The translations under genes and the position numbers were made by a program. Shown here piece by piece: positions 4,901-49,317 of a DNA stretch of 64,000 nt (its first letter is position 1; every line of letters begins with the position of its first letter). The DNA is from an uncultured Oscillospiraceae bacterium (GTDB lineage: Bacteria > Bacillota > Clostridia > Oscillospirales > Oscillospiraceae). A model generated the notes under the pieces. The model was not told where the DNA came from, ran no database searches, and was given only the letters and a program-made list of their open reading frames with translations. The DNA lies in NCBI GenBank assembly GCA_944386985.1, contig CALXDD010000004.1:62001-126000 (forward strand). The letters run 5' to 3'.

Positions 4901-7900
4901 ATGGCGCTGATATGGTAAGATTCGGTCGTACCAATGGTCAGCTTCTCCCAGTAATACACGCCCATAGTGCCCAGGTCCATCCGCTCAGGCCACTGGCCAT
5001 AGTGGATCAACGACACAGTGCCGTTCTCCTCCGCTGTAACCACGGCGGGGTAGGGGTAAACTTCCTTCCAACTGGACGCGGCTCCCCACTCCATGTCCAG
5101 CGCATCAACGGCATCACTCTCGTCCTGCCCTGTCAGAGCCTCCCATGCTACGGGGACGGCATAGGGGTCCTTATACAGGGCGGCATAATTTTCTTCCCGG
5201 TAGGTGAAATTTCCGTTGTTGAGATAGACACAGTTCTGGGAGTTATCAGGGCAGAAACCGTAGCGCTGCGCATCGCCGTCGGCCAACAGGCAGACGGCAG
5301 CATAGCTGCGGGAGAGAGTCGCGCTGCTGCGCCCGGCAAAGCCGCAGGCGTATACTGTGCCGTACCGGGCCTGGGTAACCGATACCTTGCCCACGGCGTA
5401 GCACTGGTCGATGATGCCGCCGGCGGTGTTTTCTCCCACAAATCCTCCCGCATAGGCATGGGACATGGAGGCTTCCGCAGCGATGGACGCGCCCTCCACG
5501 GCGCTGCTCTGTATGGCGCCGCGGTTCTCGCCCACCAGACCGCCCAGGTAGATGGTGCTGTACTGATAGCCGTTGGCCTGCATCTGCACTCCGAAGGCGG
5601 CGCAGTTATCCACCGTACCTCCGTTGTATCCGGCCAGCGCGCCTGCATACAGGGTCTCGGAGCTGCTGCCCGATTGGGTCACGGAGAGAACATCACCATC
5701 TTGCATCTGGTAAACAATATCCTGGAGCACGCCGGTGCTGTACCCAAACAGGCCCACATACTGGTAGGTACTCCCTTCTTGATCCCGAGCGGCAGGAACC
5801 ACCCCGGCAATGCTGTGACAGTTGCCGTAATAGATGCACCGGAAGGGACTCGCCGCGTCCAGGCCAATGGGAGCCTGAGACCAACTGCCGGTAAACAGAT
5901 CGTACCCCTTGTAGGTATCGTAGCTGAGATCCAGCTGCTGGAGGAAACGGTATTGGTTGCTGCTGGAGTAGTAGCTCGCAAATTTGCTCAGATTATAGAG
6001 GTGTCGTGGGGTGCGCACTTCCACCTGCAGCCGCTTGGCCTTGGCGGGAAGATCCTCCTCTTTGACCTCGTCGGTGGAGAGGACGGTGTTGGCAAAGTGG
6101 GGACTATAGTAATAGCTTTTTTGTGTCCCCGCTGCATCCGCCGCGTCAGGAATATCTTGAATCGTAATTTTCTGGTAAAAATTTTTGGAAACATAGCCGC
6201 TGTTGACAACCTTATCCGGCAAGGGGAGAAGATAGTAGTCATCCTCTTGGCCAGAGATATCCGCTACATGCTGCACTTGATACATGGCGTAAGCGGAATC
6301 ATCTTCACCGGCTCCATTCACATAGGAGAACGATTGCGTTTTTGAATTCCCATCTTCGTCTGTATAAGTCACTTTCAGCTCGATCGAAATGCCGGCGGTA
6401 AAATTTGTACCCTTGTAGGCCACGGCATATCCATCTTCCACCGCGGTTTTATCGTGAAACAGGTGGCTCAGTCCGCTGATATTAAAACCGTAGGAACCGT
6501 CGCCGTAGGCTTCATAGTACACCAGACTGCCGTTTTGAAACTGCGCTCCCCAGTCCCCCCAGTGGTCCAGCGCTCTCAGGCCGGGGTAAGTAAAGGTGGT
6601 GAGGGACAGGGTGGTCTGAAGGTTGTAAGGGTGGGACTGAACAATGCTTTTGGCGGTAAAAACACCGCTGCCGAAGAGAGTATCCCACTGGGTGGAGTCG
6701 ATGAGGGTACTGTAAGACTCACCCAGATCGGCATCCTGTTCAAAGGCAAAGTGGTCGGAATCAAGGAAGTGGGTCAAAGAATATGTACCTTCTTCGCACA
6801 AAGGATAGTTGGTTGCCGTCTCCGCTGCCGTAAACAGCATGGCGCTGTAAGAGCTTGTTACCGTCGCGGTACCGCCGCCCAGGCACAGCCCGGCGGCCTC
6901 AGCTGGTGTAGTTCCGCTGTCGATAAACCCCACGGCATAGCTGCCGTAAATGTCGGCGCTCCCCGTCAGATCGCCCACCAGGCCCCCTGCGGCAGGCCCG
7001 GCCAAATAGGAGGCAGCATAGGAGCGGTCAATATCCAGTTCGCTGCCCTCGCCCACCAGTCCGCCCACAGGTCCGATACTTTTCACCAGTGAGGAGGCGG
7101 AGCAGCCGGTTATGGTGGAGCTGGTCAGCTTTCCCGCCAAACCGCCTGCCGGGCCGCTGCCGGTAATCTGGTAGTTGATTTTGGTGGCGCTGTCACCCAG
7201 CACATCCCGCAGGTTGGTGGTCTCCTCGGAGCGGTTCTCCCAGTAGATCTGACAGTTGTTGATGGTTAGGTTGCTGCCATTGCCCACCAGCACGCCTGCC
7301 GGACCGCCGCTGCCTGTAAGTACAGTATTCGCCAGGCGGATATTCTCTAACGTTTTTCTTGTACCGGCCTCGCCTGAAAAATTACCGAACATACCGGCGG
7401 ACGCACCGGTTCCACTGATATTCAGATCGTAGATGGAAAACTCTCCACCGTCATAGCTGTTTAGAGCCGTATTCTCAATGGGCCGGAATTTATAGCCCTC
7501 CACCCCATAGATGTCGCTCTTTTGCACCGCCTTGGTCTTCTCAGCGGCCACCTCAGACCAATCTGCGCTCAGGTTTTGCAGGTGGCGCAGGCAGGTGATG
7601 TAGGCGGTGTCCCCATCGCTGCCCTTGGCAAACAGGCTGTTGTCGCTGGCACTCTTCCGGGCGCCGTTGACCTCCAAGGCGTCTCCTGTGTAGCTTACCT
7701 CTGCGGAAACCGTGAAATCATCGCCGTAAGTCAGCCCAGCGGCGCCATGGAAGGGAATATCTTTAAATTGTTTCCCGGTTCCGGTCAAAGAATCCAGTGT
7801 CCAGGTGTAGACATGGGTGATATAGGATACTTCTTCCGTATAGACATGATCCGCATCACCGTCAATCTGCTCCAGCGTAGTAGTCTGCTCCTGATAGGTC

Positions 7901-38952: not shown

Positions 38953-40251
38953 TTAATTTTTCAGATCTCCCGTTGCCGGGTTATCGATCAGTTTCCCGTC
39001 TTCGGTGAAGCGGGAGCCGTGACATGGGCAATCCCAGGTGTGTTCTATCGGATTCCATTTTAACGCACAGCCCAGGTGGGGACAGCGTTTGGTAGTGGGC
39101 GTCAGCAGGTTGACCACAGCCTCAAACCCGTTGACGGCCAATTGGGGGTGCAGGATGGAACGGGAAGGGGCGAATACCTCCTCATACGGGTTTTTCTTCC
39201 CCTGCACAAGATCGCTGAGGATCATAGCGGACACCATGGAGGCCGTCATTCCCCACTTGTTGAAACCGGTGGCCACATACAGATCTGTAGTGGAGGCGGA
39301 ATAAGGCCCGATATAAGGAGCACCGTCCAGACTCATGCAATCCTGAGCAGCCCAGCGGTATTGCTCCTTCGCTTGGGGGTAGTGCCGCCGGGCAAAATCC
39401 TGCAGTTCCTGCCAACCACCCCCCTTTTTTCCGGTGCGATGGTCGCCGCCCCCAATGAGCAGCAGATTTTCATAATTCCGAAAGGACATACCCGTCTGCG
39501 CCTCATCCAAATACATGCCGTCCACATCCGGCGCGCTTTGAAAAGCTATGACATAGGAGCGGTGCTGATACAGCTTGAGGAAATAACTGCCGTGCTTGCT
39601 GAGAAAGGGAAAGTGGGTCGTCACGATGATCTTCTTGGCGCGAACCCGGCCATGATTTGTCACAGCCGTGGTGCCAATCAGCTCACGCACCCGCGTGTGT
39701 TCATAAATGTGCAGGCCCTTTGCAATGCCGGAGACGAATTTCAGCGGATGAAACTGAGCCTGATTCGGGAATCTGACCGCACCGGCAACAGGGAAAGGAA
39801 GAGGGATCTTATCCACAAATTCAGCCGGAAATCCCAGTTTTTCCAGAGCATTCAGTTCCCTCTCGATTTTGCGCCGGTCGTCCAGAGAATAGGTGTAGGC
39901 CGCCTTTTCCTCAAAGCCGCAGTCAATACTCCGTCACAGCTCCCGGTATACTTGAAGCGCTGCTTCGTTGGCGGCAAGATATTTCTTTGCCCGCTCAATT
40001 CCAAACTTTGACACCAGCTTGTCATAGATCAGCCCATGCTGGCTGGTAATCTTGGCGGTAGTGTTTTTCGTGATGCCGCTGCATACTGTTTCCGCTTCCA
40101 CCAGCACATAAGGCACACCGGCACAGTGCAGCTGATAGGCGCACAGAATGCCCGCCATACCGCCGCCGATGATCAGCACATCAGTGCTCAGATCTCCTTC
40201 CTGAGCCGGAAACTTCGGCTGCTCCCAGGTTTTCTCCCATAGTGCTTCCAT
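38953..40251 (-). pseudogene. FAD-dependent oxidoreductase with C-terminal Rieske domain, interrupted by in-frame UGA
   Basis: 433 codons from ATG 40251 (GGGGGAG 7 nt upstream) to the stop at 38953. N-terminal FAD-binding motif DVLIIGGGMAGILCAYQL, DAO-type body, and a C-terminal Rieske [2Fe-2S] domain with CPHLGC and CPCHGS. The frame is interrupted only once, by TGA at codon 106 (39934-39936); codons on both sides are in the same frame and continue the protein without a gap (VYREL before, RSIDCGFEEKAAYTYSLDD after). So this is either a gene with a fresh nonsense mutation, a sequencing error, or a UGA read as selenocysteine. A hairpin about 20 nt downstream is discussed under findings. The related family acts as a glycine-oxidase-like or electron-transfer flavoenzyme of unknown substrate. 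Confidence 0.8.
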
Positions 40252-41263: not shown

Positions 41264-44200
41264 TCAGTTCTTCTTGCACCGCCAGTCCGGGTCTGTCTCG
41301 GTGCTGGAGGCAGTGGCTCGCTCCAGCTGCCAGACCACCTCGCTGTAATAGCGCGCCGGCACCTGGCCCAGCGGGAAGACGTTCTCCTTCTCGGGCACAT
41401 CATAGCAGTAGCTGCCCCGTGCCACAGTACCAGCCTTGTAAAAAACGGCGTCGAAGACGGTAATCTTCCCATTCTCTCCCCCCACAAAGCTGCCGGAGAA
41501 ATTCAGTTCCACGCCAATTCCCGCAGAGGGGTCTTCCCGATAGAAGGTGAAGAACCCGCCGCCATCCACCACATTGCCCCGATACCAGCCCATGCTCTGA
41601 AGCTTGCTCATAAGGGATAGGGAATTGAGTACACGGCCGGCCACCGTCTCCAGAGCAGCGGCCTGGGCCTGCTCCGCCGGAAGACGATAGACGGGCCGGG
41701 AGAGCTGGTCGATGCTCTGGATAATCTCATAGTCCTCCAGCTGCTGTTTCCAGACCGCCAGGGTGTCCGCCTCCAACTCAATGGGGTGGACCAGGCCGAT
41801 GTTTCCCCCATCGGGAAGTGTATACTCTTCCTCATCCGCCGTGTTGAAGCTGCCGTCCTCCATGTAGCGGAAGGTCTCCTTCAGCTTACCGCTTTCATAA
41901 ACGCCCCAGATGAGGCTGATGGCAAACTGGTGCATCACCGGGTTTTCCACAAACAGCTTCCGCCATGCCTCACTGTCCCAGCACCGGTGATTGATGAGAG
42001 CCATCTCCAGCCGGGCACGCTGGGCGGTAATGGTGGTCTTGATCTGCTTTTTCAGGGCCTTATACGCCGCATAAGCGGCAGGGGCCTTCTCCGCGTCGTC
42101 GGCCTTGCTCGGGGATGGCATGGACCTCACTGCCTTGCCCGCCTCCGTGGTTACCGCCAGTTCCAGGGAGGGAGTCAGGCGGACGATGAACTTCCGGGGA
42201 CCGTAGTCGAAAACCCGGGTGCCGTCGGGGGCAAAATCCAGAGTTGGCACGATGCGATCAGCCAGTTCCTCCTCTGTGATCCCCAGTTCCCACACCTCAC
42301 AGGCCAGGACCTCCAGTTCCTTCCCATTCAGGTCGGCGGCAATGGCGTCAGCAGTGTCGCTGCGGCCCATGCCCCCCAAATCAGCATAAGCCACAAAGAG
42401 GGCGGCAATCTGGTCCTCCGAAGCCGCAGTGTGGACCTCATCCGTGCGGTGGACCGTAAGCAGAGGCTGATCCAGAAGCCACTGAACCTTCCGCTTCTTC
42501 CCGCCCTTAAGCACCTGGGCGGCCAGTTCCGCCGGGGTCTGTCCGCCCGCACCCACCGCAGCGGCGGGTGTCCCCAGCAGAGTGGTGATCTGATCCGCCA
42601 CCTTGGTGTTCTTCTCCCCGGCCAGGGCGTTCTCCAGGGCATTGCGGTACTTCCCCACGCCGATACCCGCCAGAACCCGGATGGCAAGGCTCCGCTGAGC
42701 GGCTTTCTTGCTGCTTAGCATGGTCAGATAGTCCTTTTCCCAGTCCGGGTGGCTGATGTAACGCTCCACCAGGACCTCCTGCACCTGCTTCGAGGTGTCT
42801 CCGGAGCAGCGGATCAATACCTCACGCGCTCTTTCGGCGCAGTCAGGGCGACTGGACAGGGCGTCCAGTCCCTCCACTGCCATAACCCGGGCAGTAACAG
42901 AGCTGTTGAGCGCCGCGTCTCCCAGGTCTTCCAGCCCCGCCGGGGTGGCAAAGTGCTCCCGCACCACCTGCTCCAGGAGCTCCCTGCTCCTCTCGTACCA
43001 GCTTTGATGCAGGAGGGTCAGCACGCTCATGCAGTCCCGCACCGGCAGCCCCCTGGCGATCAGAGCATCCACAAAGGCATCCATGCTCCGCTTCTTATCG
43101 CCATCTGTAGAGAGGGGCTTGGAGGTGCCGTTCCCGGCGCAGGTAAGGCAGAAGAGGACCATGCACCGGCAGACGAAGTCATCCCACCCGGCCAGCTTCT
43201 GGTACTCCTGCAGAGCCTCATCTATATTGGAGAGATAGCGGTACTCGTTGCGGATAGGGCTGAGGAGGGCGGCGCTGTCGGCAAAGGCCCCCTGGCCGGC
43301 CAGATAGTTCCGGACAATGTCCTGTTGTTTGGGGTCCTTGCAAAAGAGCTTTTCCATGAAGGGCGTGATCACGCCCCGGAGCGCCTCCATCCAGGCGCTG
43401 TCCCTGCTGTGTTTCAGCTCCGGCAGCAGAGCGCCCAGGCGCTCGTACTCCTCCAGATTTAAGTAATCAAGGATCTCCTCCCCTGCGGCGCGGAAATGGT
43501 GAGCCAGCTTTTGGGCCGCTTCCTCGTGATGTTCGTAAAAGTCTATGACCACGAAGCGCAGCAAAGTGCCCCCTCCGCCGGGAATGTGGGGGAGCAGTGT
43601 GTCCAGGGCGTCCATCTCCCAGTCCTCCGGCAGGAAGCAAATCGTCCCCCACAGCACCCCGCAGAGATCCAACCCGGCCAGTACCCGCATAGCGCAGGCC
43701 AGGCGGGAGTCGCAGCCCAGGCCGAACAGAACCGCCGGCGCAATACACTTCACGGCAGAGGAACATGTCACTGACACCAGCAGCCTGGAAAGGTAATCCA
43801 GTTCCGAAATATGCCAGATATTGGGAAACGAGGTGGCGGGCACCGGAACTGTCGGATCTCCGGCGCGGAGATATGCCTTCAGCTGGGAAATGTCCTCATC
43901 GGAGAGCAGGCTGTTGTCCTCACTGGTGAGGATGGCCTCCACCCGGTTCAGCACCAATTCCACCTGCCGCGCCAGCGGAGCGTCCCCCTTGGCCTCCTTT
44001 GGCCCGGCGGCCAGCAGTACCCCCGCCAGCACTCCGCCGGCCATGGAGTTTTGGGGATCGGCGATCAGCCTCTGGGCCTCCAGCAGCACGTCCGGGTCGG
44101 TGCGGGCCAGTTGGTGCAGCCGCCTGGTTTGGTCATAGTCGCTGGGGTGGGCGGCGGGATACTCCGCATCCATGGCGGCCGCCGCCGCCACGCCCAGCAC

Positions 44201-44554
44201 CTCACAGCGCTGACGGAAGGCGTCGTCGCTCACCATAAAGAGATTTTCCTGACCAAACAGGGCGGCAAAGCCGGCGGTGCTCCGCCCGATGGCCCACAGG
44301 AGTTTCAGGACCTTGGCCTGGTTTTTCGTGTATTCCGGAGCGGTAACCTCCTGCAGCGTGCTGCAGATCTCCTGCCGCTCCTGCCAGTCGAAAGGAGCGA
44401 ACACCTGCCGCTCCGCGCCGGAGAGCAGGCTGTCGTCTGCCGCCTCCGTCAGATAGCTCCGGGCCAGCTTTGCATTTTGTTTCGTCAGCCCCCAGAGCTG
44501 GACAAGACGCGCCACAGCATCCGGCTTTCCTGATTTTTTTGGCTGTATGTTCAT
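41264..44554 (-). CDS. DUF4132 domain protein (1096 aa)
   Basis: A large soluble protein. The first 750 residues are helical, with HEAT-like repeats rich in Leu and Ala (for example RVLAGIGVGKYRNALENALA). The DUF4132 domain follows at about residues 755-905, with DRIVPTLDFAPDGTRVFDYG and KQIKTTITAQRARLEMALIN. The C-terminal part has a Trp/Tyr-rich stretch and a YREDPSAGIGVELNFSGSF segment. AAGGAGG stands 9 nt before the ATG at 44554; a start 11 codons upstream is worse placed. DUF4132 proteins (MolR-like) often occur beside MoxR AAA ATPases or WGR proteins; none is here. Single-gene unit, function unknown. Confidence 0.8.
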   Translation of the reverse strand: MNIQPKKSGKPDAVARLVQLWGLTKQNAKLARSYLTEAADDSLLSGAERQVFAPFDWQERQEICSTLQEVTAPEYTKNQAKVLKLLWAIGRSTAGFAALFGQENLFMVSDDAFRQRCEVLGVAAAAAMDAEYPAAHPSDYDQTRRLHQLARTDPDVLLEAQRLIADPQNSMAGGVLAGVLLAAGPKEAKGDAPLARQVELVLNRVEAILTSEDNSLLSDEDISQLKAYLRAGDPTVPVPATSFPNIWHISELDYLSRLLVSVTCSSAVKCIAPAVLFGLGCDSRLACAMRVLAGLDLCGVLWGTICFLPEDWEMDALDTLLPHIPGGGGTLLRFVVIDFYEHHEEAAQKLAHHFRAAGEEILDYLNLEEYERLGALLPELKHSRDSAWMEALRGVITPFMEKLFCKDPKQQDIVRNYLAGQGAFADSAALLSPIRNEYRYLSNIDEALQEYQKLAGWDDFVCRCMVLFCLTCAGNGTSKPLSTDGDKKRSMDAFVDALIARGLPVRDCMSVLTLLHQSWYERSRELLEQVVREHFATPAGLEDLGDAALNSSVTARVMAVEGLDALSSRPDCAERAREVLIRCSGDTSKQVQEVLVERYISHPDWEKDYLTMLSSKKAAQRSLAIRVLAGIGVGKYRNALENALAGEKNTKVADQITTLLGTPAAAVGAGGQTPAELAAQVLKGGKKRKVQWLLDQPLLTVHRTDEVHTAASEDQIAALFVAYADLGGMGRSDTADAIAADLNGKELEVLACEVWELGITEEELADRIVPTLDFAPDGTRVFDYGPRKFIVRLTPSLELAVTTEAGKAVRSMPSPSKADDAEKAPAAYAAYKALKKQIKTTITAQRARLEMALINHRCWDSEAWRKLFVENPVMHQFAISLIWGVYESGKLKETFRYMEDGSFNTADEEEYTLPDGGNIGLVHPIELEADTLAVWKQQLEDYEIIQSIDQLSRPVYRLPAEQAQAAALETVAGRVLNSLSLMSKLQSMGWYRGNVVDGGGFFTFYREDPSAGIGVELNFSGSFVGGENGKITVFDAVFYKAGTVARGSYCYDVPEKENVFPLGQVPARYYSEVVWQLERATASSTETDPDWRCKKN

Positions 44555-45205
44555 AGGTGCGTTCCTCCTTCTGTCTTTTGACCTCAATCACATTTTTAAT
44601 TGCACCGCCAGGGGCACAGGACCTCCGTTTCCTGCCGCCGCTCCCGGCAGAGGATGATACAGTCTCCGTCGGAGCCATAGCGACCGGCAGGAGACCGTCC
44701 TCTTTCACAAAATAGAAAAACGCACTGCGACACACTGCCACTTGAACAGGACGAAGCAAGGTGCGAAAGGGCCGCAAGAAAAAGCTGCGTCCATCCTCAG
44801 ACGTGCTCTCTTCCACAGATAAAATTCATTCTCTATGTTTGGTAGAATTTTTCAAAAAAGGTCAGATTGTTTTTCCATCATACTTGATTGTATAAAAATT
44901 ATCAACTCAAACTTCCATCAATCAAATCACAAAGATGGGAACCATCTTTCGGGGCAACGCACCAACCGCACCGACAACGGGCAGGTTGAATATCAACTGC
45001 GCATAACTCTATACAGGGTAATTTTTTGATGGTACCACTTTCTGAAGGGCTCCCGATGAATCGGCGCCCATCCCAATGGCATTACCGGCGCCGTGCGGGA
45101 GACTGGTTTGTGCTGTCCGCCAGGCGATCACTCAAACCAAACTCCCCTACCATATGCTTGTAAACCAAACAATACAAAGCAGCAGAACAAAGAGCTCATA
45201 ATATT
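44555..45205. other. Intergenic stretch, no gene seen
   Basis: About 650 bp with no supported gene. It should carry the minus-strand promoter of the DUF4132 gene near 44800-44880 (TTGAAA on the minus strand, poor -10). Near its end (45159-45179) is a 21-bp element that recurs with 18 of 21 matches at 48991-49011 in the same orientation, flanking the PerR module. Confidence 0.4.
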
Positions 45206-45237
45206 GGGGCGCTGCAGAATCTAATCTGCAGCGCCCC
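45206..45237 (-). terminator. Terminator of the PerR-hydrogenase-rubrerythrin operon
   Basis: GGGGCGCTGCAGA (45206-45218) pairs with TCTGCAGCGCCCC (45225-45237), loop of 6 nt; on the minus strand AATATTATG follows, a weak U-tract. It begins 13 bp after the rubrerythrin stop. Confidence 0.75.
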
Positions 45238-45250
45238 TGTTCTCACAAAA

Positions 45251-46435
45251 TCAATAGTTGTCGCCGTGAATTTCAAAGAAGCCCTTGGCGTACAGGCAAG
45301 TGGGACACACCTCCGGAGCGGCGGTACCAACCACGATATGGCCGCAGTTGCGGCACTCCCACACCTTGACCTCGCTCTTTTCAAAAACCTGGGCAGTCTC
45401 CACATTGTGCAGCAAGGCGCGGTAGCGCTCCTCGTGGCGCTTCTCAATGGCGGCCACCAGGCGGAACTTGGCAGCCAGCTCAGGGAAGCCTTCCTCCTCG
45501 GCGGTCTTGGCAAAGCCGTCGTACATATCGGTCCACTCGTAGTTCTCGCCCTCGGCGGCGTGGAGCAGATTTTCGGCGGTACTCCCCACACCATGCAGCT
45601 CCTCAAACCACATTTTAGCATGGGCTTTCTCGTTTTCCGCTGTCTTCAGGAACAACGCTGCGATCTGCTCGTACCCCTCGCTCTGGGCCACAGAGGAGAA
45701 GTAGGTATACTTGTTCCGGGCCTGGGACTCTCCGGAAAAAGCAGCCTCCAGGTTCTTCTCGGTCTGGGTACCGGCGTACTTGTTCGTGCTCTTGACGGGG
45801 GCCTCTTCAATCAGTTCAAAGGCGGAGGCGGGCTGCTTACAGATGGGGCAGAACTCCGGGGCACTGTCGCCTTCGTGAATATATCCGCACACTTTGCATT
45901 TCCACTTTTTCATAACCTTTTTTTCTCCTTTTGATACCGTCTCATTACAGGGAACACGCCCCAACAATTCTTTTGCCGCATGGACAGGAAAATCGGGAGC
46001 GGGCGGCGCATCCACAAAGCTCTGAAGCAGCTGATGGGCGTTGGCGCTCTGAGGAAGCATATAGCCAGCCTCCCGGAGCAGATCTTCATTGACCAAGCGA
46101 ACAGATTTTTCGGCAGCTTTCATCAGCCGGTAAAGGCCGTCTTTATCTGTATTTTCCGCCAATTGCCGGGCAATGTTCTCCTGGTCTGCCTTGTTACCAG
46201 CCATATGATTGGCCTGGGCCACTACAGCCTGGCTCTTTTTCTGCTGCGGGGGATATTCCGTTGGGACCATGGAAATAGCACCGCTGGGACAGGCATCGGC
46301 ACATACGCCGCAGCCCAGGCATTTATCCACATCAATGACGCTGTTTTCCGTATCAGTTGCCCCTGTGGGACATACATACAGGCACAGACAGTCCTTGGTA
46401 CATAACCGCAGATTTCGTACTGCTACTTGTTTCAT
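45251..46435 (-). CDS. rbr: Ferredoxin joined in frame to double-rubredoxin rubrerythrin
   Basis: 394 residues in one frame. Residues 1-55: ferredoxin-type Cys pattern ([12 protein letters not shown] and [12 protein letters not shown]). 56-170: helical linker. 176-210: short rubredoxin (CKVC...CPIC, Cys180/183/196/199). 219-355: rubrerythrin diiron domain with Glu in [14 protein letters not shown] and EKRHEERY. 358-394: second rubredoxin (CRNC...CPTC). Rubrerythrins reduce H2O2 using electrons delivered through rubredoxin. AAAGGAG followed 11 nt later by ATG (codon 175, position 45913) lies inside the frame exactly where a free rubrerythrin ([12 protein letters not shown]) would begin, and TAA and TGA occur just upstream in another frame. 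So both a fusion and a free 220-residue rubrerythrin are possible. It starts 3 bp after the hydrogenase stop. Confidence 0.88.
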
Positions 46436-46438
46436 GGT

Positions 46439-48472
46439 TCAGCCTCTCCCTTCTATTTTTTCAAATTTCCATGCCGGGACCTTACATACCGGGCAGAGTT
46501 GGGGGGCATTGTCACCTACATAGATAAATCCACAGACAGTACAGACCCATACCTGGGTATCTCTCAAAAAGGCTTCCCCATCCTTTTGATAGCGGTTCAG
46601 CAGGGAATCCAGCATCCGGGTGACCTTTTCTCCCCAAACACAGATCCGCTGAGTGCCTCGGTCTCCAGCAGCCGCAGCGATGGCATTCAGCTCGGGATAA
46701 CCTTGGCTGAGATCCTGCCGGATCAGTTCCATCAGCTTATCCAGGCTGGGATCGGAAACCGGAGGCTGAGCGGCGGACAAATAGTCCGCAATCTCCCGGA
46801 ACAGGGCGGCCTCCTTCTCGTGGTACTGCTTCTCGCACCCACGAGCCAGGTTGGAGCATACAGCGGACAGCTCCCCGGCGGACAGCTGCCGCATCTCGCC
46901 AATATGGTGGATGGGGGCGGGCTGTGCCTTGGCCTCGCTTGAGGGCTGCTGAGGGGAAAAAGCGCTCTTGTCCGCCCCACACAGAGGACATACCCAGTTC
47001 TCCGGCAGAGCTTCAAAGGCCCTGCCCTCCTTTGCCTCATCATAGATATACCCGCAGATTCCACAGGCCCATTTTTTCACAGGAATTCCTCCCTTCTGAT
47101 GTATGAGTCCACTTCGGTCTTGGTAGGTGGTGTGAAGCATCCGTTCGGCCAGCTGGCTAAGCGGCTGTCCGTAAAAGGCTTCGTAGACCTCTTTGATTTC
47201 CGGATTATCATGGCTGGCGCGAAGGGTCATGGAGCCGTCCCGCTGATAGAGCGCGGCAATGCGGCTCTTACGGATCTCATCGGCGTTTTTCATCAGATCC
47301 TTTGGCTGTCCGCCGCCGCCGATACAACCCCCGGGACAGGCCATGACCTCCACAAAATGGTACTGCTTTCCGCTTTCTTTCATCCGCTGGAGGAATGTGC
47401 GGGCGTTGGCGGTGCCGTAAACCACGGCCACCTGCAGCGTTAGCGCCCCGATTTCCACTTGGGCCTCCCGCACCCCTTCATAGCCCCGGACAGGACTGAG
47501 CTGAAGCAAAGTCTGGGGCGCTGCCTGACCAGTGAGGTATTCATATGCGGTACGCAGAGCAGCCTCCATCACTCCACCGGTGTTGCCGAAGATGACCCCC
47601 GCCCCTGAGGCCTTACCCATCAGGGAGTCATAGGCGGAGTCCTCCAGGGCGCTCCAGTCAATTCCGGCTGTCTTGGCCCACCGGGCCAGTTCCCGGGTAG
47701 TAATGACGTGATCCGTGTCCCGCATTCCCTCGATGCCGTGGTAATCGGCGGCGGCATGCATCTCTTCCCGGCGGATCTCAAACTTCTTGGCCGTACAGGG
47801 TGTCAGGGCAACATGGACGATCTGCCGGGGGTCCAGGCCCATCTGCTTGGCAAAATAGGTCTTCACCGTAGGACCCTGCATCCCAATGGGGCTTTTGGCG
47901 GTAGACAAGTGCGGCAGCAGTTCCGGGGCATAGATCTCAGCGAAGTGTACCCAACCGGGGCAGCAGCTGGTGAACTGAGGCAGGGGGCGGTCCTGTTCTC
48001 TAATGCGGCGGATCAGCTCACTGGCCTCCTCCACAATGGTCAGGTCAGCGGCGAAGTTGGTATCCAGCACATAGTCCACACCCAGAGCTCGGAGCAGGGC
48101 CACCATCTTTCCCTCCACAAAAGCGCCGGGCTCCATACCGAACTCCTCGCCAAGAGAGGCGCGGACAGCGGGAGAGGTACTAACTACCACCACTTTCTTA
48201 AGGTCGGCAATGGCCTTTTGCACCTGGGAAGCTTCATCCCGCTCGGTGATGCTGTCCACCGGGCAAACATTGGCGCACTGGCCGCAGTAGATACAGATGG
48301 CCTTCCCGCCCGTCTCTTCCAATATGTAAGTTCCGTGTACCCCCATCAGGTTGGCACAGGCCTCTTTGCACTTACCACAGCGGATACACTTTTCCTCCCA
48401 GCGAACGATGCTGGGGTTGTCCGCCTCGATGGGGACGCGGATCGATAAAGGCAAATGGTTCAGTTTCCTCAC
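46439..48472 (-). CDS. [FeFe] hydrogenase joined in frame to rubredoxin/helical/rubredoxin protein
   Basis: 677 residues, GTG start overlapping the perR stop (GTGA at 48469-48472). 29-70: two 4Fe-4S motifs ([23 protein letters not shown]). H-cluster motifs: L1 TSCCPGW (168-174), L2 TPCTAKKFE (224-232), L3 [16 protein letters not shown] (375-390). The hydrogenase ends near residue 455 (AERMLHTTY). 468-500: rubredoxin (CGIC, CPLC). 521-640: helical domain with [19 protein letters not shown], ferritin-like in appearance. 642-677: second rubredoxin (CTVC, CPVC). GGGAGG with a 7-nt gap to GTG (47078-47080) lies inside the frame just where [12 protein letters not shown] would start as a free protein. 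Function by family: H2 oxidation or evolution coupled to rubredoxin-linked reduction. Confidence 0.9.
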
Positions 48473-48846
48473 ATTCCTTTCCTTTTCATTTTCTTTTGAC
48501 AGTCCTCACACAAATAGGTCAATTTCAGATCATATGACAAAATAGCCATTCCAGCCTGCTTTTCCAGCTGTGCGGTAAGGTCACCCAGATCAATGTCCAC
48601 CAGTTTGCCGCACCCCTTGCACACCAGGTGATCGTGGCGTTTGATATGATCATACCGGTCGGGCATTCCCTCCACTGATACCTTGCGGATCAGATCCTCC
48701 TGCCACAGGCGATTGAGGTTATTGTACACGGTAGCTAACACCACAGCTGGATAGGTCTGTCGAAGCGCCTCAAAAATTTCCTCAGCCGTCATATGACTGC
48801 GGGAGGAACTTACAATCTCTAAAATTTTCTTTCCATACTTAGTCAC
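48469..48846 (-). CDS. perR: Fur-family peroxide-sensing repressor, PerR-type
   Basis: 125 residues from a GTG at 48844-48846. The frame is open to an ATG at 48900, but that ATG overlaps the -10 box of the promoter, so it cannot be in the transcript; GTG at 48846 gives [20 protein letters not shown], the expected start of the family. Winged helix ([24 protein letters not shown]), regulatory-metal segment [13 protein letters not shown], and structural zinc pairs CKGC and CEDC. PerR represses peroxide-defence genes until iron-catalysed His oxidation releases it. The box on its own promoter and the peroxidase genes downstream fit PerR better than Fur or Zur. Confidence 0.88.
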
Positions 48847-48862
48847 ACTACTCAACACCGTT

Positions 48863-48910
48863 TTTAGAATTATTCTAAATTTATTATATAAATTTTCCAA
48901 ATTCTGTCAA
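48863..48910 (-). promoter_or_regulatory. perR operon promoter with PerR box on the start site
   Basis: On the minus strand TTGACA (48905-48910), 16-nt spacer and TATAAT (48883-48888), both full consensus. Directly downstream, over the likely start site, is the perfect palindrome TTTAGAATTATTCTAAA (48863-48879), close to the PerR consensus TTATAATNATTATAA. Binding there would block RNA polymerase, predicting self-repression of perR, the hydrogenase and the rubrerythrin genes. Confidence 0.85.
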
Positions 48911-49287
48911 GAGACAAATTTTCCAAAATAGTCAGTCCTATTTTGGCAAAAGCGGCGGTGTAAACCGCAAAAATTCCCTTATACCGTGTCTGTAAACCAA
49001 GTAATACACAGTATAGAGGGAATTTCAAACCGAGCTTCCCCGGGTTGTGCGGGCAGTACAAGAAAGCACCCCTGGTAGGAATGCGAACAGTTCCGGTAAA
49101 AACGGACAGCGACAAAAGCACCCCTGATGTAGAAAACAGACTGCATCAGGGGGGCATGAAAAAATGAAATTACACACACGTTCAAGTTCTGCTGCCTGAG
49201 ATCAAGGCCATACCGGCAGAGAGAAACACACAGCAAAAACTGGTTTCAGTCACCGTCTGCCTGGCCATGAAGTGAGAGAAAAAGAGA
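48911..49287. other. Intergenic stretch between the PerR module and ptsI
   Basis: About 370 bp without a gene. It holds the second copy of the 21-bp element (48991-49011), two copies of AAAGCACCCCT about 60 bp apart, and a hairpin CCCCTGATG (49121-49129) with CATCAGGGG (49144-49152) that could end minus-strand transcripts (TGCTTTTG follows). Confidence 0.4.
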
Positions 49288-49317
49288 GTCTCTGTGGAGG
49301 TGCAGCTCCACAGAGAC
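49288..49317 (-). terminator. Terminator of the PTS operon
   Basis: GTCTCTGTGGAG (49288-49299) pairs with CTCCACAGAGAC (49306-49317), 6-nt loop; on the minus strand TCTCTTTTTCTC follows. It lies about 150 bp beyond the ptsI stop and ends the eleven-gene operon. Confidence 0.85.

Follow-up and report, generated by a model that had tools for sequence, protein, structure and literature searches.

Fusions of an [FeFe] hydrogenase with rubrerythrin were reportedly first predicted by Calusinska et al. in 2010. The closest described system is HydR. According to the accessible part of PMC11926857, the enzyme of Clostridium perfringens (CperHydR) is a chimera of [FeFe] hydrogenase and rubrerythrin that uses H2 to reduce H2O2, behaves as an H2-uptake enzyme with almost no H2 evolution, and has an L2 motif quoted as TPCTAKKFE. 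A figure legend in PMC6984386 names a rubredoxin-rubrerythrin-rubredoxin class of hydrogenases, and the main text of PMC8924675 mentions neither rubrerythrin nor rubredoxin. The order hydrogenase, rubredoxin, rubrerythrin, rubredoxin is thus already in print, and the sequence-only reading of the present locus, which did not know the architecture as a described system, is not supported on this point. Our literature search returned no paper on a version lacking diiron ligands, nor on internal starts in these genes.

The fusion gene and its operon

In the window, by which we mean the whole 64,000-nucleotide stretch analysed, one GTG-initiated frame encodes an [FeFe] hydrogenase followed by a rubredoxin, a four-helix domain that we call X, and a second rubredoxin-like domain (the last three together Rub-X-Rub; Table 1), and profile matches and motif positions bear out the sequence-only reading on this arrangement. 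The hydrogenase part scores above the cut-off of the group A model TIGR02512 (473.9 bits against 405.95) and contains L1 TSCCPGW at residue 168, L2 TPCTAKKFE at 224 and L3 EVMACPGGC at 375, so that it bears both sequence marks of a group A [FeFe] hydrogenase, model score and H-cluster motifs. A gene for the maturase HydG is found in the same genome (923.6 bits against a cut-off of 312.15). Three more hydrogenase-like matches occur there, at G000:C1:217899-219194, C61:177-1433 and C31:18738-19550, with 43, 38 and 34% identity to the query, respectively.

The protein resembles CperHydR, as presented in the accessible part of PMC11926857, in joining hydrogenase, rubredoxin, helical domain and rubredoxin in one chain and in its identical L2 motif; within its own hydrogenase clade there are HydR relatives that reach 93% identity. 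It differs in that the helical domain belongs to another family and lacks the Glu/ExxH diiron ligands, the intact rubrerythrin being encoded separately by the adjoining gene (FdRbr), and the same part of that paper mentions no internal start for CperHydR. The architecture is close to that of the published HydR, and the difference lies in X, a helical domain without diiron ligands.

Table 1. Features of the locus in window coordinates (SD, Shine-Dalgarno sequence with its pairing energy)
Feature	Position	Strand	Basis
Sigma-70-type promoter, TTGACA-16-TATAAT	48883..48910	-	12/12 consensus matches; consensus match only
Operator-like palindrome TTAGAATAATTCTAA, just past the -10 element	48864..48878	.	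Sequence match
Fur/PerR-family regulator gene	48469..48846	-	Pfam FUR, 6.5e-22; GTG start placed from aligned relatives
Fusion gene hydrogenase-Rub-X-Rub, 677 aa	46439..48472	-	GTG-initiated ORF
[FeFe] hydrogenase domain (residues 1-458); 4Fe-4S motifs at its N-terminus	47099..48472	-	Pfam Fe_hyd_lg_C 2.6e-91, Fe_hyd_SSU 7.2e-21; TIGR02512; L1-L3
Internal SD AAGGGAGG	47088..47095	-	-11.6, the strongest among 39 in-frame start-type codons
Internal start codon GTG, residue 465	47078..47080	-	Ten fused genes: five with GTG, five with ATG
Rubredoxin 1, residues 467-505	46958..47074	-	Pfam Rubredoxin, 3.2e-10; 4 Cys in 74/74 rows
X, four-helix domain, residues 532-636, predicted rubrerythrin-like fold without diiron ligands	46565..46879	-	Model, Foldseek, motif counts
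Rubredoxin-like domain 2, residues 642-671	46460..46549	-	Pfam RUBY_RBDX; 4 Cys in 74/74 rows
FdRbr, 394 aa: 4Fe-4S domain, helical segment, rubredoxin, rubrerythrin with intact ligands, rubredoxin	45251..46435	-	Pfam, RuberyRbr
Second internal SD and ATG, inside FdRbr before its rubredoxin	45911..45931	-	AAAGGAG...ATG, -8.9
1184-nt segment missing from the closest HydR gene (L151)	45908..47091	-	blastn; flanks 83.2% and 83.4% identity

The GTG of the fusion gene overlaps the TGA of the regulator gene. The regulator scores below the PerR cut-offs (75.6 bits against 180 for the best NCBIfam match, and 70 against 200), and for this reason we call it only PerR-like. The palindrome TTAGAATAATTCTAA is the sole match in the window at up to two mismatches, where 0.10 would be expected; apart from the window it recurs exactly in eight of the nine other fused loci described below and in five HydR loci, and it is absent from fused locus L046. 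We take it to resemble a PerR box. Promoter-like sites number 5 in the region 44900-49300, as against 2.4 in shuffles, and a PerR-like gene near Rub-X-Rub was found in just 41 of the 80 related loci, some of which have short flanks.

We lean slightly towards a stress operon controlled by the PerR-like regulator, probably in response to peroxide, whose second gene would give rise to both the 677-residue hydrogenase-Rub-X-Rub and a free Rub-X-Rub of 213 residues. In the long product an H2-oxidising [FeFe] hydrogenase would be wired to Rub-X-Rub, and the free form would be made from a conserved internal ribosome-binding site, provided that this start is used. X would have lost its diiron site and could act as a scaffold or docking unit for the two rubredoxins. 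Electrons from H2 would pass from the H-cluster through the 4Fe-4S clusters and a rubredoxin to the neighbouring FdRbr, where the diiron site would reduce H2O2 as the presumed acceptor. [FeFe] hydrogenases are often reversible, and this common property would fit the opposite flow, with Rub-X-Rub and Fd feeding the hydrogenase for H2 production. The L2 motif, identical to that of CperHydR, which evolves almost no H2 according to the accessible part of PMC11926857, and the operon neighbours, a rubrerythrin and a PerR-like regulator, make such reverse flow very unlikely. From the sequence we infer the uptake direction for the fusion hydrogenase.

Fused and free genes, and the start at the junction

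Genome contigs were scanned with an alignment of nine C-terminal halves, which confirmed at least 574 relatives, and the best 80 loci were kept. The hydrogenase is fused in frame in nine of these (L045, L046, L047, L048, L049, L052, L054, L056 and L072), a fraction that is not a prevalence because the 80 are the most similar relatives. In the other 71 Rub-X-Rub has no fused hydrogenase, so that the comparison with relatives suggested in the sequence-only reading gives the second half as a separate gene. Hydrogenase matches above 200 bits occur in nine of the 80 loci, all of them fused; in the flanks examined, Rub-X-Rub was never accompanied by a hydrogenase gene of its own. Locus L048 is from Angelakisella massiliensis Marseille-P3217T and the remaining eight fused loci are apparently from metagenome bins. 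In a class-wide draw Rub-X-Rub was present in 25 of 391 genomes (the window's own included), fused in the own genome only; among 60 relatives it was present in eight other genomes, free in seven and cut by a contig end in one (L033). The family is widespread and usually a free gene. Rub-X-Rub operons in a Spirochaetaceae bin (L101) and an Erysipelotrichaceae bin (L068) reflect either gene transfer or wrong binning. A tblastn search of a phage collection gave 17 records, all below 60% identity and none annotated, comprising 16 hydrogenase-domain matches and one rubredoxin match; this says nothing for or against a link to phages.

The junction reads GGGAGG (47093-47088), 7 nt, GTG (47080-47078) and AAA AAA TGG (47077-47069); the sequence is as first described, the end having been placed 3 nt short, at 47072. 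The predicted free product comprises residues 465-677, which is 213 residues rather than the approximately 214 first estimated. A TGA in another frame overlaps the GTG, so a one-base error could in principle have merged two overlapping genes, and the sequence-only reading had named separate genes in relatives, with the fusion due to misassembly, as one finding that would undo it. The identical in-frame fusion in nine other loci, one of them in a named strain, leaves such an error with negligible probability.

All ten fused genes (the window and nine loci) have the pattern AA[AG] GGA GG[AC] NNN NNN [AG]TG at the junction. The SD energy at the internal start is -11.6 to -11.9 and is the strongest among in-frame start-type codons in every one of the ten, the ranking in the window gene having been made over 39 in-frame ATG, GTG and TTG codons. 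Start-type codons common to all ten genes occur at ten columns, and only at the internal start do all ten have a strong SD. The start of the free Rub-X-Rub genes corresponds to the internal one; across 64 of them its SD energy ranges from -13.1 to 1.2, the median being -11.6. The hidden start proposed at the junction, of the kind with which a separate rubredoxin gene would begin, is therefore kept by every one of the ten fused genes and has its equivalent in the start of the free genes.

It could be that this SD and start are an unused relic of the fusion event, that only the 677-residue protein is made, and that the Lys-Gly-Gly, which is conserved in the linker between varying neighbours, serves simply as a linker. 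Inheritance would account for the origin of the signals, since the free genes share them, and synonymous codon shuffles with the amino acids fixed reach the observed SD in 16-41% of cases per fused gene, which is unremarkable; because of this the SD argument draws its weight from the retention of the signal, and of the Lys-Gly-Gly itself, throughout a set of genes of common descent. On the other hand, SD and start codon persist in genes whose four-fold third-base identity in invariant columns is only 0.446. The two glycine codons of the SD are GGA in 10 of 10 and 9 of 10 genes, against a background of 90/430 over 43 invariant Gly columns, and the start column is split evenly between ATG and GTG. 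We regard the relic explanation as rather unlikely. The conservation of the internal start in all ten genes, its SD being the strongest in each, and its correspondence to the start of the free genes make two products, fused and free Rub-X-Rub, likely. In nine of the ten fused genes, all but L047, the best start found at the hydrogenase end is weaker than the internal start, so that the free carrier may predominate among the products.

Internal in-frame starts have a counterpart in the gene that yields Cas11b (PMC11899642), the shared feature being one frame proposed to give two proteins. Compared with genes of that type, the small product here corresponds to a stand-alone gene of relatives, and use of the start is only predicted. 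If two products are indeed made, a single gene would supply hydrogenase and electron carrier at a fixed ratio, and the fused genes would offer a clean test case for internal starts kept after fusion.

The helical domain X and the neighbouring rubrerythrin

The predicted model of Rub-X-Rub (mean pLDDT 85.7, pTM 0.77) contains four helices, and its top Foldseek match is the rubrerythrin of P. furiosus (1nnq_A; E 6.0e-6, 22% identity, TM 0.60 by target length, rmsd 4.7). The ferritin-like appearance ascribed to the helical domain is thereby borne out as a rubrerythrin-like fold in the model. The diiron fold for which a structure prediction had been suggested is not supported, the ligand motifs being missing: ExxH is present in only 4 of 74 Rub-X-Rub rows and no column has about 30% His or more. 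Two or more ExxH motifs are present in 74 of 75 rubrerythrin rows, a comparison set that was picked by motif search and may count the protein of the window a second time, as L125. On these motif counts we rejected a diiron site for X. Relative to P. furiosus rubrerythrin, X has no ExxH motifs and a rubredoxin on both sides. The Rub-X-Rub alignment comprises the window and 73 of the 80 loci; L057 and L060 were excluded for stop codons in the cited range, and L082, L095, L111, L113 and L120 are also outside it. X has no Pfam match, Rubrerythrin included. A comparison of its sequence profile with that of rubrerythrin falls short of significance, and where solved rubrerythrins do match by profile, the match spans the last part of X together with the rubredoxin. 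It is therefore chiefly the fold and the order of the domains that speak for kinship. By model and motif counts, X is a domain of predicted rubrerythrin-like fold from which the diiron ligands are missing.

That the fusion is an ordinary HydR, with its own diiron site for H2O2 reduction, would agree with the domain order and with rubrerythrin as the best fold match, and is highly improbable given the motif counts just described. X could instead be an enzyme, or bind a cofactor of its own through Cys 539, 546 and 611 and the invariant acidic residues, which would make the fusion an H2-dependent reductase of unspecified substrate. Among the Rub-X-Rub rows, C76 is found in 67, C83 in 73 and C148 in 69 of 74, and E84, E91, D141, R142, R146 and W150 are invariant. 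These residues may equally be structural or belong to an interface, and X contains neither a known motif nor a Pfam match; we consider an enzymatic X unlikely. As X has no ligand motifs, the peroxide-reducing site of the favoured operon reading is more probably in the next gene, FdRbr.

FdRbr passes the RuberyRbr model (271 bits against a cut-off of 200) with its ligand Glu and His residues conserved, and the rubrerythrin ligand residues are retained in at least 74 of the 75 rubrerythrin rows. An Fd-type ORF is present in all 80 Rub-X-Rub loci, but at least 15 of these ORFs have no rubrerythrin part, and FdRbr therefore cannot be the universal partner. Rub-X-Rub and Fd may be the core pair, an apparently uncharacterised one that occurs in many gut-anaerobe genomes. 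The Fd-helical gene ends before any rubrerythrin in L051, L053, L063, L067, L071, L078-L082, L090, L092, L096, L118 and L123. The predicted model of the Fd domain has a pTM of only 0.48 and was set aside. Between the 4Fe-4S part and the rubredoxin of FdRbr lies a helical segment of about 100 residues (window 45941-46240) that has no Pfam match and is conserved in 61 aligned rows. In L045, a metagenome bin, an in-frame TAG (7315-7317) splits FdRbr between the 4Fe-4S/rubredoxin part and the rubrerythrin part. An ATG or GTG precedes the rubredoxin in 43 of 43 FdRbr ORFs in which the motif was found (including the window's own as L125), with SD energies of -4.2 to -11.9.

Relation to HydR

A hydrogenase match at E <= 1e-150 is held by 18 of 394 genomes of the order, the window's own included, and the hydrogenases of the other 17 are 67-93% identical to the query; twelve are fused to rubredoxin-rubrerythrin-rubredoxin, which is HydR, and five stand alone. 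Locus L039, from the set of 60 relatives, is a thirteenth HydR. The L2 motif is TPCTAKKFE in all ten fused genes and in 11 of 13 HydR. ATG or GTG stands before the rubredoxin in 13 of 13 HydR genes and its SD ranks first in seven, with weak values in L152 (-5.6) and L153 (-5.9). Of the 18 genomes that carry HydR or a hydrogenase standing alone, 17 gave no Rub-X-Rub at E <= 1e-20; G026 has both.

Alignment with the closest HydR gene places the edges of the missing 1184-nt segment within the first internal SD and 6 nt past the second internal ATG, and the alignment edges of L152, L153 and L154 lie within 52 nt of those of L151. The hydrogenase tree has 36 rows, with 13 of 21 outgroup rows and L040, a duplicate of L165, omitted, and its bootstrap had not settled. 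On this tree the X-fused state requires 6 changes, 3 of them forced by well-supported branches, and HydR 8, of which 4 are forced. On the rubrerythrin tree, which omits L156 and L167, HydR requires 8 changes, 5 of them forced. These multiple forced changes suggest repeated conversion between HydR and the X-fused form, possibly in either direction, to which transfer between lineages could contribute. On the Rub-X-Rub tree a single origin of fusion was tried and disfavoured, the ten fused rows as one clade giving an AU p of 0.0204 (bootstrap not settled), although the starred branches force only one change for fusion.

A broader proposal, to which we give a little less than even chances, is that modules of the redox defence proteins of these anaerobes each keep their own ribosome-binding sites after in-frame fusion and so yield fused and free forms. 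Excision between two such start modules would then have turned the hydrogenase-Rub-X-Rub/FdRbr operon into the single-chain HydR type repeatedly, and free rubrerythrin would also be made from HydR genes. If this is true, it would provide an origin for the chimeric HydR, and HydR as made in nature may consist of fused and free forms side by side.

Downstream of the operon, a 1107-aa frame (window 41264-44587, minus strand) contains a DUF4132 domain. A 287-aa frame (38953-39816, minus strand) encodes a Rieske domain together with the closing part of an FAD-dependent oxidoreductase domain, and is apparently shortened at its start.
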